From positions 1-25,241 of the IMG/VR virus record IMGVR_UViG_3300007734_000509: DNA of 25,241 bases; one strand, written 5' to 3'. The DNA is from a virus. The notes beneath the pieces were generated by a model. The model saw nothing but the letters and a program-made list of their open reading frames with translations, made no database searches and was not told the origin of the DNA. The first letter of the stretch is position 1. Every line of letters starts with the position of its first letter. Positions 110-23,619 of the stretch are shown here, piece after piece. A program made the translations under genes and the position numbers.

Positions 110-489
110 TAGTAAAACACCATCCTTCCTATGTGCGTTTTCTTGCGTTTACCGAACCATTCTTTCTTTGGCGGTATTGAGTCATCATGGAAATATAAAG
201 CATTTGCAACTGGGTTAGCATATTTATTATGAACAATCGTATCAATAACAAGTAGTTTAGTCTCCAGATACGCTTTTTCATTAACTGGATTGTGGGACTC
301 ATCTTGCACAGCAAACTGATTATTAGAATAAACGACAGAACATACATCACGACCCCAACGACCAGAACGCACTCTATTGCGAATAACATTTATCACACCT
401 ACCTTTTCTTCTAGTGAACGAGTATTGACCTCATGATACACCGCAGTAGCATAACATGCAACATCTAACTCTAAATTATGAATATCCAT
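109..489 (-). CDS. SleB-like cell wall hydrolase (endolysin)
   Basis: This 126-residue protein looks like the catalytic core of the SleB/Hydrolase_2 family, which cleaves the glycan strand of peptidoglycan as a lytic transglycosylase. A conserved helix carries YHE (likely catalytic Glu20). It is followed by the family pattern VGVINVIRNRV (30-40), then VCSVVYSNNQFAV (49-61) and a C-terminal NALYFHDD segment. There is no signal peptide or membrane segment, so release to the cell wall would need a holin, which was not identified. The start at 489 overlaps the TAA of the upstream gene and has no clear Shine-Dalgarno, which suggests translational coupling. It is probably the lysis enzyme of the phage, although it sits in a leftward operon headed by recombination genes. 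Confidence 0.85.
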   Translation of the reverse strand: MDIHNLELDVACYATAVYHEVNTRSLEEKVGVINVIRNRVRSGRWGRDVCSVVYSNNQFAVQDESHNPVNEKAYLETKLLVIDTIVHNKYANPVANALYFHDDSIPPKKEWFGKRKKTHIGRMVFY

Positions 490-821
490 TATGGTTTATA
501 AGTATTATACACAATAGGATGCACCACTTCTGGCGTTAAAATATCCACAATTTTTCTTCTAATAGAATCTTTATGTATATTCACTATAAAACAACATAGG
601 TCTAATAAATCACTATTAGTAAATAACCATTTAATGGCGTCTATCCTACTATCTGCATTAATTTGATGGTCATATTTTGTATTTTTACTTAAATCAAAAT
701 TAGGTCTTTGCCTATATAAAGCATCTTCTACTGCTTTCATAAGAATACATGTCATTAACTTGCCTTCTGGGGTATGTGCCAACATACTGTTATCATCGTT
801 ATCAATTATATCTTCTAACAT
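489..821 (-). CDS. hypothetical protein, 110 aa
   Basis: This soluble protein of 110 residues starts at 821 behind a good ribosome site (AGGAGG, 5-6 bases from the ATG). It ends in a TAATG overlap with the hydrolase gene, so the two are almost certainly co-translated. The N-terminal third is acidic (MLEDIIDNDDN). The middle, LTNSDLLDLCCFIVNIHKDSIRRKIV-like region, looks helical. I recognise no domain. It is the first leftward gene after pqqA, which is transcribed away from it, and may be reached by readthrough from the promoter at 2863-2891 or by a promoter in 822-935. Confidence 0.65.
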   Translation of the reverse strand: MLEDIIDNDDNSMLAHTPEGKLMTCILMKAVEDALYRQRPNFDLSKNTKYDHQINADSRIDAIKWLFTNSDLLDLCCFIVNIHKDSIRRKIVDILTPEVVHPIVYNTYKP

Positions 822-864: not shown

Positions 865-893
865 TTGACTTTGCCTGTAAAAACCACGAAAAT
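865..893 (+). promoter_or_regulatory. weak candidate promoter for pqqA
   Basis: TTGACT (865-870, five of six consensus bases) is followed after 17 bases by GAAAAT (888-893), which is only a partial -10. A second possible -10, TATACA at 896-901, would need TTGCCT at 871 as its -35 with a 19-base gap. The region is non-coding and lies just upstream of pqqA, so a promoter is expected here, but neither match is strong. Confidence 0.35.
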
Positions 894-916: not shown

Positions 917-935
917 GACTTTTAAGGACATTATC

Positions 936-1007
936 ATGTGGACAAAACCATCAGCAACTGAAATGCGTTTCGGCTTTGAAGTAACTATGTACGTTATGAA
1001 CAAGTAG
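936..1007 (+). CDS. pqqA: PqqA, precursor peptide of pyrroloquinoline quinone
   Basis: A 23-codon gene encodes a peptide beginning MWTKP and containing MRFGFEVTMY, the hallmark of PqqA. In this family PqqE, with the chaperone PqqD, joins the Glu and Tyr of the E-V-T-x-Y motif; these atoms become PQQ. Here they are Glu15 and Tyr19 with the correct three-residue gap. Length (usual 22-26), the N-terminal MWxKP and a basic C-terminus all fit. AAGGA lies seven bases before the ATG. Codons such as TTC, GGC, TAC and AAC differ from the T-ending style of neighbouring genes, which suggests acquisition from a host. No pqqB-E gene is visible, so the peptide would be matured by host enzymes. It sits alone on the plus strand between two minus-strand genes and is followed by a terminator. 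Confidence 0.9.
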   Translation: MWTKPSATEMRFGFEVTMYVMNK

Positions 1008-1023: not shown

Positions 1024-1061
1024 GGGGATGCTCCTAAAATGGAACATCCTCATTTTCTTTT
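1024..1061 (+). terminator. intrinsic terminator after pqqA
   Basis: GGGGATGCTCC (1024-1034) pairs with GGAACATCCTC (1041-1051) with one mismatch and one G-T pair around a TAAAAT loop. ATTTTCTTTT follows. The T-run lies only on the plus-strand side, so it stops rightward transcripts from pqqA but not the leftward operon. Its right half overlaps the last codons of the minus-strand gene ending at 1034. Two tandem AGTGTGTAT copies (1006-1023) lie between the pqqA stop and the stem. Confidence 0.7.
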
Positions 1062-1270
1062 GCAACTTCACGTTGAGCTTCTGAATTACTTTCTTTTAGT
1101 TGTGCACTTCCAGAAATAAACTTACCATTTTTACCTTCACGAATCCAACCAGAAATTCTAAACTCAATACCGTCAAGATTTAGGTTTCCAGTGTAATCTG
1201 GTCGTTTAGGATTGTCGCCCTTATTGTTTTTAAATAAAGTAAACGTATTTGTATTGTCGTATTCTGCCAT
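1034..1270 (-). CDS. small protein with SSB-like C-terminal tip
   Basis: This 78-residue protein has a beta-rich middle (TGNLNLDGIEFRISGWIR, then GKFISGSAQL), a hydrophilic linker and an acidic end, ENEDVPF. That ending resembles the D-D-x-P-F tip by which bacterial single-stranded DNA-binding proteins recruit recombination and replication partners. The protein is shorter than a classical SSB and is not clearly an OB-fold by eye. It lies downstream of the exonuclease and Erf genes, which supports a ssDNA-handling role. The start at 1270 follows GGGGAA. Calling it an SSB substitute is an inference. Confidence 0.6.
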   Translation of the reverse strand: MAEYDNTNTFTLFKNNKGDNPKRPDYTGNLNLDGIEFRISGWIREGKNGKFISGSAQLKESNSEAQREVAKENEDVPF

Positions 1271-1271
1271 G

Positions 1272-1520
1272 TTAGTTCCCCATTGTGTTAATTAAATTAT
1301 CAATTGATTTATTATGTTTTTTAGTATAATAATTTTTATAAAAGTTTGCTACTGTGCTACCTGTAAAGTTATCAGGATTACGCTTAATTAATTGACCAAT
1401 AACTTTATCTAATCTTTCCATGTACTCTTCTTGCTTTTCTAAAGACAGTTCATCAAATGTTTGTGCATGTAATCCACTAGATGCTTTTATTAATGCTTGC
1501 CTTTCTATGTCATTAAACAT
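1272..1520 (-). CDS. hypothetical protein, 82 aa
   Basis: The start overlaps the TAA of the exonuclease gene (TAATG), with AAGGAGATTAAG just upstream as ribosome site, so the two are coupled. The 82 residues are mostly helical and highly charged (LSLEKQEEYMERLDKVIGQL). No catalytic motif or membrane segment is visible. Its place between exonuclease and SSB-like genes suggests a recombination accessory factor, but function is unknown. Confidence 0.65.
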   Translation of the reverse strand: MFNDIERQALIKASSGLHAQTFDELSLEKQEEYMERLDKVIGQLIKRNPDNFTGSTVANFYKNYYTKKHNKSIDNLINTMGN

Positions 1521-2122
1521 TACTTAATCTCCTTAAGTTTATTAATTACCTCATCCACTTCTTTTAAAAACTGCTGCACTTCCACTTCTAATTCTTTTTG
1601 ATATACAGGGTCTGCTTCTATACGTTTTACAAATATCTGTAAATGTTTTGGAAACATTGGGTGGTAACTCACAAAGTCACACCACTTACGACCTGTCACC
1701 AAAAGTTGAAACTGTACTTGAGGAACGTACTTACTTGGAATATCTTGTGTCATCAATGTTTCAGTATGCGTACTTCCCATAGGGCACTTAATCTCAAGAA
1801 TACCATCATCACCTACCATGCCATCAGGACTAGCACCAGCTTCCAAAGTTGGATGTTTAACAAATCCTACCTCTTCCACTTCCCCATGTTCTTGCACATA
1901 CCTTTCCCTAGCAAATTGTTCTCTATCTATACCGTCTTGCATTGCTTGGTTAATATAAGACTCTTGCCTTTCTCCAGTTAATCTTTCGCTTACTAACTGA
2001 ATCTTGTAGTTACGCCTAGACGCAGATTCACCACTCTTAATTTTTGCTAATACATCAGCTACACGACTGGCTGTGACCAAACCTAGTCTTGCTTGAAACC
2101 ACTCTTCTGAACGCTGTTCCAT
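1520..2122 (-). CDS. YqaJ / lambda-type 5'-3' exonuclease
   Basis: This 200-residue PD-(D/E)XK exonuclease belongs to the YqaJ viral recombinase family. It starts with the family signature QRSEEWFQARLGLVTAS (3-19). The catalytic core is ASPDG...ILEIKCP, giving Asp100, Glu110 and Lys112, and VPQVQFQLLVTG forms the conserved Gln helix near residues 132-143. Such enzymes digest one strand of duplex ends to leave the 3' overhang used by an annealing protein, here the Erf product encoded immediately upstream (TAATG overlap at 2122). Together they form a two-component recombination module like lambda Exo/Beta. Length matches the family. Confidence 0.92.
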   Translation of the reverse strand: MEQRSEEWFQARLGLVTASRVADVLAKIKSGESASRRNYKIQLVSERLTGERQESYINQAMQDGIDREQFARERYVQEHGEVEEVGFVKHPTLEAGASPDGMVGDDGILEIKCPMGSTHTETLMTQDIPSKYVPQVQFQLLVTGRKWCDFVSYHPMFPKHLQIFVKRIEADPVYQKELEVEVQQFLKEVDEVINKLKEIK

Positions 2123-2541
2123 TAGATAAAGTCCTCCGCTTTAGTATCTTTCATATTAATCACAGCACCCGCACTAGCATCAATAGCATCATGCTCTACA
2201 ATCTCAAAAGCATTAGTCCATAAATATCTACGCAAGTAAGTTTGTACTGCACCTAAGTTTTGAACCTCATGGCAACCTTTTAAAGCAGCACTTGACATAG
2301 GGCATTTAAACTCAATAAATTGTGTAGCATCATTCATATCTGTAACAGTTAAGACTGCAATGTCTGTATAAAATGTGACTGTGCCACAAATACCCACCTC
2401 ATTACAAATCTCTTGAATGGTAGGTAAGAAATCACCTAACTCAAAATATTTGTATCCAGCAAACTTATTATGACCAGACTTCTTAAGGTCTGCTACTTGT
2501 AACTTTAATCTTGCTTTCATTAATTTACTGTGTATGCTCAT
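2122..2541 (-). CDS. erf: Erf-family single-strand annealing protein
   Basis: The ERF family signature is visible: HNKFAGYKYFELGDFLP (24-40), a middle strand pair, and the GAVQTYLRRYLWTNAFEI block (97-114), matching the family G-x-x-x-T-Y-x-R-R-Y pattern. Erf proteins form rings on ssDNA, promote annealing and circularise phage genomes. I place the start at 2541 because GGGGAG sits six bases upstream and family similarity begins there; a longer frame reaches 2655 but would overlap the upstream gene deeply. At 139 residues it lacks the longer C-terminal tail seen in P22 Erf. It overlaps the upstream gene by 17 bases. Confidence 0.88.
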   Translation of the reverse strand: MSIHSKLMKARLKLQVADLKKSGHNKFAGYKYFELGDFLPTIQEICNEVGICGTVTFYTDIAVLTVTDMNDATQFIEFKCPMSSAALKGCHEVQNLGAVQTYLRRYLWTNAFEIVEHDAIDASAGAVINMKDTKAEDFI

Positions 2542-2722
2542 CTTTTTCTCCCCTGTTACATAATTTAATGTCTCTAATACTTCTTTCTGATGTTTCTCCA
2601 TCATTACTTGGTCGTAATGTTGTCTTTGGCTCATTTGCTTTCTCCCATTTATCATTATCCTCTTTCAATTCTTTTACAAGGTCAGAAAGAATTAATGCTA
2701 TATGTTTTAAATTATTCTCCAT
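2525..2722 (-). CDS. hypothetical protein, 65 aa
   Basis: This small, very polar protein starts at 2722 (MENNLKHIALILSDLVKEL) with a GGGGAT ribosome site. Its N-terminal third is an amphipathic helix; the remainder is a charged, likely disordered tail. The start overlaps the 3' end of the small membrane-protein gene by 16 bases, and the stop overlaps the erf start. The tight packing supports it as a real early gene. No family recognised. Confidence 0.6.
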   Translation of the reverse strand: MENNLKHIALILSDLVKELKEDNDKWEKANEPKTTLRPSNDGETSERSIRDIKLCNRGEKDEHTQ

Positions 2723-11519: not shown

Positions 11520-12788
11520 ATGGAGTCGCAAAAAACTTTAGATACTGGATACAGACCTCGTGTCCCACAAAAATTAATACATAACGCAGTTAAAGATCAT
11601 AGGTTTGTAGTAGTTGTAGCACACAGACGTATGGGTAAAACTGTTTCTGCTATTAATCAACTGATACATAGTGCTCTTACATGTACAAAAAAAGAACCTA
11701 GATACGCATATGTAGCTCCAACTTACAATCAATCTAAACGTATTGCATGGGATTATCTTGTAAACTATACAAGACCTCTTGGTGCTAAAGCAAACATTGC
11801 TGAACTTCGTGTAGATTTTATGGGTAGACGTATTAGTCTTTATGGTGCAGATAACCCTGACTCACTTCGTGGTATCTATTTAGATGGTGCAGTCATAGAC
11901 GAAGTAGGTAATATTAATCCATCTGTCTTTAGTGACATTATCCGACCTGCTTTGACAGACCGACTAGGTTTCTGCGTTGCTATGGGTACGCCTAAAGGCA
12001 ACAATCATTTTAGAGGGTTGCGAGATAGAGCCGCTGAAGGACAAGGATGGAAATTACTAGAGTTTAAATCTAGTGACACAAAGATTTTAAATGAACAAGA
12101 ATTATCTGCTGCTCGTAATGAAATGGGCGAAGATAAATTTATGCAGGAATTTGAATGTAATTTTAATTCTCCTGTAGAAGGTTCTTTTTATTCTAAAATT
12201 ATAAATGAAATAGAAGAAAAAGCACACATGACAGAAATACCTCGTGATGATTTGTGTCGTAGTTACACAGCATGGGATTTAGGTATGTCAGATTCTACTG
12301 CTATATGGGTAGCTCAACTTACAGGCAAAGAAATTAGACTAATTGATTATATGGAAAATCATGGTCAAGGATTAGATTACTATGTTTCATGGCTTAAAGA
12401 CAATGACTATGGACATTTTACACACATACTGCCACATGATGTAGAAGTTAGAGAATTAGGTACAGGCAAATCTCGTAAAGAAATATTAGAAGATGCAGGA
12501 CTTAACATTGTGACTGCTCCTCGCCTTAATGTAATGGATGGCATACAAGCAGTCAGAAGAATAATTCCTAGATGTTGGTTTGACCCAAAATCAAAACAAG
12601 GATTAGATGCACTAAGAAATTATCGTAGGCACTATGATGAAAAAAGAGCAGTTTTCCATGATAGACCTTTACATGATTGGTCATCGCATGCTGCTGATGC
12701 TTTTAGATACCTTGCTACAGGATTAGATGATAGTCCTGCCGAAGAATGGAATAAACCAATTAACGTAAATAATAAATGGATAGTTTAA
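11520..12788 (+). CDS. terL: terminase large subunit
   Basis: The 422-residue ATP-driven DNA packaging motor and nuclease is complete. The N-terminal ATPase shows Walker A AHRRMGKT (34-41), Walker B DGAVIDE (122-128) and the coupling motif GTPKG (156-160). The C-terminal RNase H-like nuclease shows three metal-binding acids: Asp253 in TAWDLGMSDS, Asp307 in LPHDVE and Asp393 in HAADAFRY. It works with TerS and docks on the portal, which is encoded next. The ribosome site AAGGAGG is 12 bases from the ATG, rather far; an out-of-frame ATG at 11510 opens only 24 codons. Confidence 0.95.
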   Translation: MESQKTLDTGYRPRVPQKLIHNAVKDHRFVVVVAHRRMGKTVSAINQLIHSALTCTKKEPRYAYVAPTYNQSKRIAWDYLVNYTRPLGAKANIAELRVDFMGRRISLYGADNPDSLRGIYLDGAVIDEVGNINPSVFSDIIRPALTDRLGFCVAMGTPKGNNHFRGLRDRAAEGQGWKLLEFKSSDTKILNEQELSAARNEMGEDKFMQEFECNFNSPVEGSFYSKIINEIEEKAHMTEIPRDDLCRSYTAWDLGMSDSTAIWVAQLTGKEIRLIDYMENHGQGLDYYVSWLKDNDYGHFTHILPHDVEVRELGTGKSRKEILEDAGLNIVTAPRLNVMDGIQAVRRIIPRCWFDPKSKQGLDALRNYRRHYDEKRAVFHDRPLHDWSSHAADAFRYLATGLDDSPAEEWNKPINVNNKWIV

Positions 12789-21165: not shown

Positions 21166-23619
21166 ATGTCAATTATTGGCTCAAATGTATTAGCAGGTGC
21201 TAGTGGACAAGCTGGATATAACCTAAACAATTCTTTAAGATATAGAAGTAGTGCAAGTGCTTATCTATCAAGAACTCCTACAGTTGCAGGTTCAAGAACT
21301 ACATGGACATGGAGTGGCTGGGTAAAAAGAGGAGCTATTAGTGCAACATCTTCTATTTTTTCAGCAGGTAGTGGAGCAAATATAACTGAATTATTTTTTA
21401 CAGCAGCAAATATTTTAAGGTTTTATGATTATATTTCTAGTTCATACGCTACTAATCTTGAAACAACTCAAGTATTTCGTGACCCTTCAGCTTGGTATCA
21501 TATTACTGTTGTTTACGATACAACTCAAGCAACTGCGGCTAATAGAGTTAGATTATATGTAAATGGTAATCAAGTAACTTCGTTTAGTTCAACAACATAT
21601 CCTGCACAAAATTATGCTAGTGGCATAATGAATTCAACAACTGCTTCAGCTATTGGAGGAAATGCAGGAACAGGATACTTTGATGGTTACATGACTGAAA
21701 TAAACTTTGTTGACGGACAAGCCCTAACACCATCATCATTCGGTGAAACATCTACAACTACAGGCACATGGATACCTAAAGCCTACTCTGGTTCTTATGG
21801 CACTAATGGGTTTAAATTAAACTTCTCTGATACATCTGCTGCAACTGCTGCCGCTATAGGTAAAGATAGTTCAGGTAACGGAAACAATTGGACACCTAAT
21901 AACATATCTGTAACTGCTGGCACAACCTATGATGCTATGACAGATGTGCCTACTAATACAAGTGCGACTGTGGCGAATTATGCGGTGATGAACCCATTAA
22001 TGAAATTTGGTTCTAATTTAAGTTGGAACAATGGTAATCTTCAATTAGTAAAATCATCTTCAAGCACACAAGACCACACTTATGGAACTATTGGTGCATC
22101 TAGTGGCAAATATTATTGGGAAACAACAATAACAGCTTTTGCTGGTAGTAGTCCTTATATTTATTATGGTATTGCAAGAGGATTAGATACTACAACAATT
22201 TATGATAATACTGCTATTTGGTATGCTTCAGACGGAACAAAATCAAACAGAGCATCAGCAAGTTACAATCAAGCATATGGCTCATCATATACAACAAACG
22301 ATGTTCTTGCAGTTGCTCTTGATTTAGATGCTGGAACTATTACATTTTATAAAAACAATGTAAGCCAAGGTGTTGCTTATAGTAATTTAGGTTCATATCC
22401 AGGTTTATACATGGCTTATATAAATTTTGATGGAACTTCAGTTACTGCAACAACTGAATGGAATTTTGGTCAACGACCATTCACCTACACACCACCTACA
22501 GGCTATGTAGCACTCAATACCTTCAATTTGCCAACACCTACTATACTGCAAGGTAATAAGTATATGGATGCAACGCTATGGACAGGTGCAGGTGCTTCAA
22601 CTATGACCATAACTAATACGGCTGGATTTAAACCTGATATGGTATGGGTAAAAAGTAGAAGTAATGCTTATAGTAATCTTGTATGGAATTCAATAGTAGG
22701 TGTTGGTAATACTACAATGCTTGTTACAGATACTACAGCTGCGGAAGGTTCTTATTATGGAAATGCTAATTTAACATCATTTAACTCTAATGGTTTTTCT
22801 ACAGGAGCTACTTCAGGCACGAATGTATTAAATGCAAATGGAGTTACTAATGTAGCATGGCAATGGCAAGCAGGTCAAGGCTCAACATCATCTAATACTT
22901 CAGGCACTATTACATCTACTGTATCTGTAAACACAACTGCTGGGTTTAGTGTGGTGACTTATACAGGAACAGGTGTAGCTGGAAATAAAACAATTGGTCA
23001 TGGACTTGGTGTTGCACCATCTATGATTATTTTAAAAGATAGGGATACTGCATCTTCAGGCGGACCTGGTGCATTAGGTGCTAATGATTGGTTTGTTTGG
23101 CATAGTAGTTTTGCAAATGTTAATTCTATTTTGGGATTAAACTCTACAGTTGCAACACAAACTACTTCTGGGTTTTGGGGTGCATCTGTTCCATCATCAA
23201 CAGTATTTGGTATTAATGGCACTTTAGCTTCATTAAATGAAAGTGGAGATAGATATTTAGCTTATTGCTGGGCAGCTATATCAGGCTTTAGTGCATTTGG
23301 TTCTTACACAGGTAATGGTTCTGCTGATGGGCCGTTTGTATTTACAAACTTCCAACCTAAATATGTAATGATTAAAATTTCATCAGGTATTGAATCATGG
23401 TATGTATATGATTCAGTTAGAAATACATATAATTTAACTAATACAGTTTTAAGTCCAAATGATTCAGCAGCTGAATATACTGCTAGTGCATCTGTATTAG
23501 ATTTATTATCTAATGGATTTAAAATTAGAGGTGCTGCAGGTGGATTAAATGTATCTAGTGCAACATATATATATGCTTGTTTTGCAAGTAATCCCTTTAA
23601 GAATTCTAACGCACGCTGA
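21166..23619 (+). CDS. large lectin-like tail protein (LamG, SPRY-like, DUF7483-like)
   Basis: This 817-residue protein is a chain of sugar-binding-type beta domains. Residues about 24-195 form a LamG/concanavalin-like domain (TWTWSGWVKRG; AWYHITVVYDT; RLYVNG; GYMTEINFVDGQAL). About 270-450 look SPRY-like (HTYGTIGASSGKYYWE; ALDLDAGTITFYKNN; EWNFGQRPF). About 470-817 hold two or three repeated units with GFSVVTYTGTG...IGHGLGVAPSMIILK and FVFTNFQPKYVMIKI, similar to DUF7483, ending YIYACFASNPFK. It presumably recognises surface glycans. Its stop overlaps the next start by one base. Confidence 0.82.
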   Translation: MSIIGSNVLAGASGQAGYNLNNSLRYRSSASAYLSRTPTVAGSRTTWTWSGWVKRGAISATSSIFSAGSGANITELFFTAANILRFYDYISSSYATNLETTQVFRDPSAWYHITVVYDTTQATAANRVRLYVNGNQVTSFSSTTYPAQNYASGIMNSTTASAIGGNAGTGYFDGYMTEINFVDGQALTPSSFGETSTTTGTWIPKAYSGSYGTNGFKLNFSDTSAATAAAIGKDSSGNGNNWTPNNISVTAGTTYDAMTDVPTNTSATVANYAVMNPLMKFGSNLSWNNGNLQLVKSSSSTQDHTYGTIGASSGKYYWETTITAFAGSSPYIYYGIARGLDTTTIYDNTAIWYASDGTKSNRASASYNQAYGSSYTTNDVLAVALDLDAGTITFYKNNVSQGVAYSNLGSYPGLYMAYINFDGTSVTATTEWNFGQRPFTYTPPTGYVALNTFNLPTPTILQGNKYMDATLWTGAGASTMTITNTAGFKPDMVWVKSRSNAYSNLVWNSIVGVGNTTMLVTDTTAAEGSYYGNANLTSFNSNGFSTGATSGTNVLNANGVTNVAWQWQAGQGSTSSNTSGTITSTVSVNTTAGFSVVTYTGTGVAGNKTIGHGLGVAPSMIILKDRDTASSGGPGALGANDWFVWHSSFANVNSILGLNSTVATQTTSGFWGASVPSSTVFGINGTLASLNESGDRYLAYCWAAISGFSAFGSYTGNGSADGPFVFTNFQPKYVMIKISSGIESWYVYDSVRNTYNLTNTVLSPNDSAAEYTASASVLDLLSNGFKIRGAAGGLNVSSATYIYACFASNPFKNSNAR

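Follow-up and report, generated by a model that had tools for sequence, protein, structure and literature searches.

Phage-encoded PqqA of Venkman-related and other methylophages, a probable substrate-only contribution to host PQQ synthesis

A close counterpart of the system analyzed here is the Lake Baikal methylophage VP_266, whose PqqA, the precursor peptide of PQQ, has been put forward as a means of raising methanol oxidation (Coutinho et al. 2020, PMC7678222). Published in 2020, the idea of a phage pqqA is thus not new in itself, and the first-pass annotation of the present DNA, which recognized such a gene and could not say whether one had been reported, is answered on the latter point by this one methylophage. 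VP_266 is a single case of a T4-like phage in which pqqA stands beside a phage methanol dehydrogenase gene, whereas the phage studied here is related to Venkman and no dehydrogenase was found in it. Furthermore, virus-encoded pqqA, pqqE, and pqqD have been recorded in viral contigs from reservoir sediments (PMC13188868), where, as far as the accessible part of that report goes, they are treated as phosphate-solubilizing genes on the basis of annotation, with no conservation or context analysis, whereas both are given here. Beyond the Baikal and reservoir reports, we found no earlier mention in the open-licence literature; the P19250A paper might hold one, and the texts of the Venkman, MEP301, MEP401/402, and Melnitz papers do not mention pqqA. 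New here are the breadth of its occurrence, its fixation in a lineage, the constraint acting on it, its repeated acquisition, and its oversight in isolate genomes.

On the host side, PqqE crosslinks a Glu and a Tyr of PqqA while PqqD binds the leader of the peptide (PMC10906245). Methylophilaceae keep 3–12 copies of pqqA and mostly single pqqB–E genes (PMC4109929), and in a methylotroph the expression of pqqA1 and pqqA3 increases with the rate of PQQ synthesis (PMC9851590).

The window, that is the whole stretch of 25,241 bases of an IMG/VR viral record, encodes terminase subunits, a portal protein, a major head protein, Erf, a YqaJ exonuclease, a single-strand DNA-binding protein (SSB), and a Cro-like regulator; the presence of portal, terminase, and capsid genes confirms the initial placement of pqqA in a phage. 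Its terminase is 94% identical to that of Manatee Spring phage, 72.6% to that of Venkman, and about 47% to those of Pelagibacter phages, which are the nearest relatives with a named host after Venkman. From sequence, we infer a Venkman-related tailed phage with a Methylophilaceae host. Further along (21166–23619, plus strand) lies a gene for a protein of 817 residues, likely a tail protein or adhesin, that contains lectin-like and SPRY domains as well as DUF7483; it matches MEP301 in part at the DNA level. The features referred to below are the following.

489..821, minus strand: upstream neighbour of unknown function, divergent from pqqA
865..893, plus strand: candidate promoter TTGACT-17-GAAAAT, 9/12 matches, weak alone
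924..928, plus strand: ribosome-binding site AAGGA, read from the sequence, 7 bases 5' of the ATG
936..1007, plus strand: pqqA, PQQ precursor peptide, 23 codons, stop TAG at 1005–1007, crosslink residues Glu15 and Tyr19
1034..1270, minus strand: SSB, convergent with pqqA (PHROG 18154, E 7e-15)
1520..2122, minus strand: YqaJ exonuclease, lineage marker independent of pqqA (PF09588, 91 bits)
2122..2655, minus strand: Erf-like single-strand annealing protein
11520..12788, plus strand: terminase large subunit, 72.6% identity to OM43 phage Venkman

Translation of pqqA gives the 23-residue product MWTKPSATEMRFGFEVTMYVMNK, followed by a stop. Its identity as PqqA is borne out by both curated families, whose cut-offs are exceeded: the Pfam profile PF08042 is matched over positions 1–19 of 19 (E 3.2e-11, 43.3 bits for a cut-off of 21.1) and the NCBIfam equivalog TIGR02107 at 2.3e-10 (40 bits for a cut-off of 20). 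The whole viral record holds a single PF08042 match (E 8.3e-12), and no family of the phage library PHROGs matches the peptide. The length, start, strand, ribosome site, and Glu15/Tyr19 spacing described in the first-pass annotation all hold in the sequence, the two residues forming, with three others between them, the E-x-x-x-Y pair that becomes the PQQ skeleton. The peptide shares with Methylophilaceae PqqA its 23 residues, the MWT(K/T)P leader, the EMRFGFEVTMY core, and Glu15/Tyr19, and differs in being phage-encoded, alone, and beside phage recombination genes, with Ser6 common in phage copies. In Venkman, MEP301, and the window alike, pqqA runs opposite to the adjacent recombination genes.

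Since pqqA is flanked on both sides by minus-strand genes, a promoter of its own and separate transcription are expected. The TTGACT of the candidate promoter is retained in close relatives, and the total of promoter-like sites is not above chance. A motif resembling a ribosome-binding site precedes the gene in 41/41 distinct copies of the lineage. The conserved GGATG...CATCC stretch 3' of pqqA was considered as a terminator and rejected, as it forms the 3' terminus of the SSB gene that converges on pqqA. In one sub-clade, a palindrome (TGTGTAATATATTACACA, seen in L321) lies just 5' of pqqA and is a possible operator; other copies have unrelated upstream sequence.

Relatives were collected by the neighbouring exonuclease (identity of at least 75% and a flank of at least 1.8 kb), pqqA taking no part in the selection. 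All 57 relatives thus gathered carry pqqA at the same place, 440–620 bases beyond the exonuclease and on the opposite strand, and more distant exonuclease relatives place it likewise (5/5). This position is fixed while the adjacent SSB is merely 64–77% identical in nearly all members. Conservation of Glu15 and Tyr19 in related phages, one of the points on which the initial reading had been made to depend beforehand, was found in 57/57. Furthermore, pN/pS among distinct copies is 0.09–0.11, with 1936 synonymous versus 278 nonsynonymous pairwise codon differences in core codons 9–19 and, in the freer leader (residues 1–8), 718 versus 1094. An excess of synonymous changes in the core together with a freer leader is what one expects when a peptide is translated and its core matters. 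Of 178 exonuclease segments of equal length, 63 have a pN/pS as low; the constraint on pqqA is thus typical for a conserved phage enzyme, comparable in magnitude to that on the neighbouring exonuclease and not exceptional. In this lineage, pqqA is under purifying selection and fixed in position.

How widely phages carry the gene was examined by tblastn of PqqA against 50,697 phage records. Positive phages are Venkman, Manatee Spring phage, P19250A, MEP301, MEP401, MEP402, and four Melnitz isolates; apart from two Acinetobacter records, matches in this collection are confined to methylophages and the one Manatee Spring relative, and the Pelagibacter phages that it contains gave none. Every cultured methylophage lineage that the search reached carries pqqA; as the search was keyed on PqqA itself, cultured methylophages devoid of the gene are possible, and MEP431–434 and HIM624-A, named in the taxonomy, did not turn up in the collection. 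The PqqA peptides of cultured methylophages, encoded in several genomic settings that are unrelated to one another, are 77–100% identical to that of the window, that of Venkman being identical. The suspicion that gene callers miss pqqA proved justified: most GenBank methylophage records have no feature annotated there, and in others a hypothetical antisense ORF is annotated over it, as in Melnitz (L310:1961-2056) and Manatee Spring phage (MW202481, overlap at L001:2067-2195). Acinetobacter phage MD-2021a (L311, CAKLQF020000010.1) was rejected as a case of phage pqqA, its record being contaminated by bacterial chromosome in which the pqqABCDE operon is complete.

Among environmental viruses, IMG/VR was scanned with degenerate DNA patterns, in two scans of at least 120 matches each. 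The search of viral contigs recommended at the outset was fruitful, over a hundred environmental contigs being positive; a full PqqA-like peptide is present in 178/185 collected loci, the matches listed in these scans among them. The alphaproteobacterial pattern VGMEVTxY was found in only 4 viral contigs. Grouped by flanking proteins, 301 viral loci form one large group and 26 smaller ones, several of which carry terminase, portal, or tail genes. It appears from these contexts that pqqA was acquired independently more than a few times; the exact number of acquisitions is not readable because the flanks are short.

Gain and loss are visible at closer range. Within the Venkman exonuclease lineage (at least 92% identity, with enough flank) pqqA occurs in 26/26 members; it occurs in 5/8 relatives at 62–80% identity and in 0/41 YqaJ relatives at 53% identity or less. 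Three near-identical Venkman relatives (L419–421) have no pqqA near the marker. In Melnitz-like phages, pqqA forms a small cassette 5' of a tRNA-Leu gene; some contigs have this cassette, and many others are cleanly devoid of it despite a neighbour gene of 99–100% identity; a comparison of this kind, upstream of an OB-domain gene, is offered by L518/L519 versus L515, L516, L517, L520, and L521. Among MEP402-like phages, pqqA is found in 3 of the 4 closest relatives and is mostly absent from distant ones. The gene is thus not indispensable in every lineage, as its absence from L419–421 and from many Melnitz-like contigs indicates. Because Melnitz is related to SAR11 phages, presence or absence of the cassette in Melnitz-like phages could mark host adaptation.

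That pqqA comes alone, without the enzymes of the pathway, was likewise upheld: no pqqB–E gene was found in 477 viral loci, the contaminant being set aside, and no methanol dehydrogenase gene in viral loci either, the loci spanning up to about 15 kb (40 kb for Manatee Spring phage). The same search, as a positive control, retrieved pqqB–E in 21/120 host loci. PqqA itself was found in all 120 Methylophilaceae genomes searched, in 1–12 copies each, with many orphan copies away from the operon, and PqqE exceeds its cut-off in 112/120, so that the partner enzyme is available in hosts. When the phage peptides were set against host PqqA sets, the leader variety of the former was also present in the latter. 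Thr4 variants occur in 109/187 host genomes and Lys4 in 97/187, and Lys4 and Thr4/Ser4 peptides lie largely in different genomes (G001–G187), a split that offers a possible clue for matching phages and hosts. Thr4/Ser4 as a viral modification was rejected because host genomes show the same split, and the Lys4 versus Thr4/Ser4 variety of phage PqqA probably follows host lineage. Residue frequencies of host PqqA obtained by pattern search are biased by the pattern and were kept out of the argument on invariant positions.

Here, pqqA is a host-type gene within a bona fide phage genome and is retained by selection, as is characteristic of auxiliary metabolic genes. We consider it quite probable that it is a genuine substrate-only gene of this kind, by which a Venkman-related Methylophilaceae phage feeds PQQ synthesis in its host. 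The phage would make the PqqA peptide during infection, the PqqD and PqqE of the host would crosslink its Glu15 to Tyr19, and the host protease, PqqB, and PqqC would complete PQQ, so that PQQ methanol dehydrogenases would stay supplied with cofactor while host genes are shut down. Infected cells would presumably run short of PqqA, and the phage copy would make up the shortfall. As one PqqA is consumed per PQQ, the peptide is the sole component that a phage can add with a gene of 72 bases. The many host copies, and the expression of two of them rising with the PQQ synthesis rate in a methylotroph (PMC9851590), fit the view that peptide supply matters; with up to 12 pqqA copies already in hosts, the benefit of one more is not self-evident. 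We infer that the gene is expressed during infection, that host PqqD/E accept its product, that PQQ increases, and that the phage gains from it.

Other readings of the same gene deserve to be weighed. The peptide might act as a decoy occupying PqqD and PqqE, thereby lowering host PQQ or steering its use, and many phage peptides do differ from the common host ones in the PqqD-binding leader (Ser6, Thr4). Had the peptide become a decoy, one would expect Glu or Tyr to be lost, whereas the core and both residues are kept, and the leader changes follow host variety, given the frequencies of Thr4 and Lys4 among the 187 host genomes; we regard this reading as unlikely. Retention for another role, such as signalling to host methylotrophy genes or regulating them, with the supply of PQQ being secondary, could draw on the many orphan copies that hosts keep off the operon. 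Nothing in the sequence points to such a role, the conserved residues are those of the PQQ pathway, and we hold it to be improbable.

The gene could also be valued as DNA rather than for its product, as a recombination or attachment site that lets the phage integrate at a host pqqA. While dispersed host copies are numerous and the pqqA of the main lineage is next to genes for exonuclease, SSB, and annealing protein, its ORF is intact, has a ribosome site of its own, and is no mere gene end, its synonymous sites vary freely among relatives (pS 0.34–0.40) where an attachment core would forbid it, and no integrase is among its annotated neighbours, which makes this proposal very unlikely. That the gene is functionless DNA captured from a host, or that host contigs were miscalled as viral, is extremely improbable. 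Two Acinetobacter "phage" records did match and the one inspected proved to be host chromosome with the full operon; this explanation is nevertheless refuted by the genomes of isolated phages that carry pqqA and by the codon pattern, and the fixed position in 57/57 relatives, the purifying selection, and the structural genes of the window likewise argue against it.

A supply of precursor peptide to host PQQ synthesis thus being the preferred reading, the distribution of the gene suggests a common viral way to keep methanol oxidation running during infection. We find it rather more plausible than otherwise that phages of methanol oxidizers carry pqqA almost generally, as a substrate-only gene acquired repeatedly, and that its gain and loss may mark adaptation to methylotrophs. 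Cultured pairs already carry pqqA (Venkman and Melnitz on H5P1, MEP phages on FZCC strains), which makes cofactor manipulation through a peptide precursor directly testable. It is also an example of how surveys of viral metabolic genes pass over very small genes. In coastal water and lakes, the oxidation of methanol by OM43 and related methylotrophs accounts for an important flux of carbon and, if our reading is true, viruses would act on this flux through a 23-residue peptide missed by gene callers and phage family libraries.
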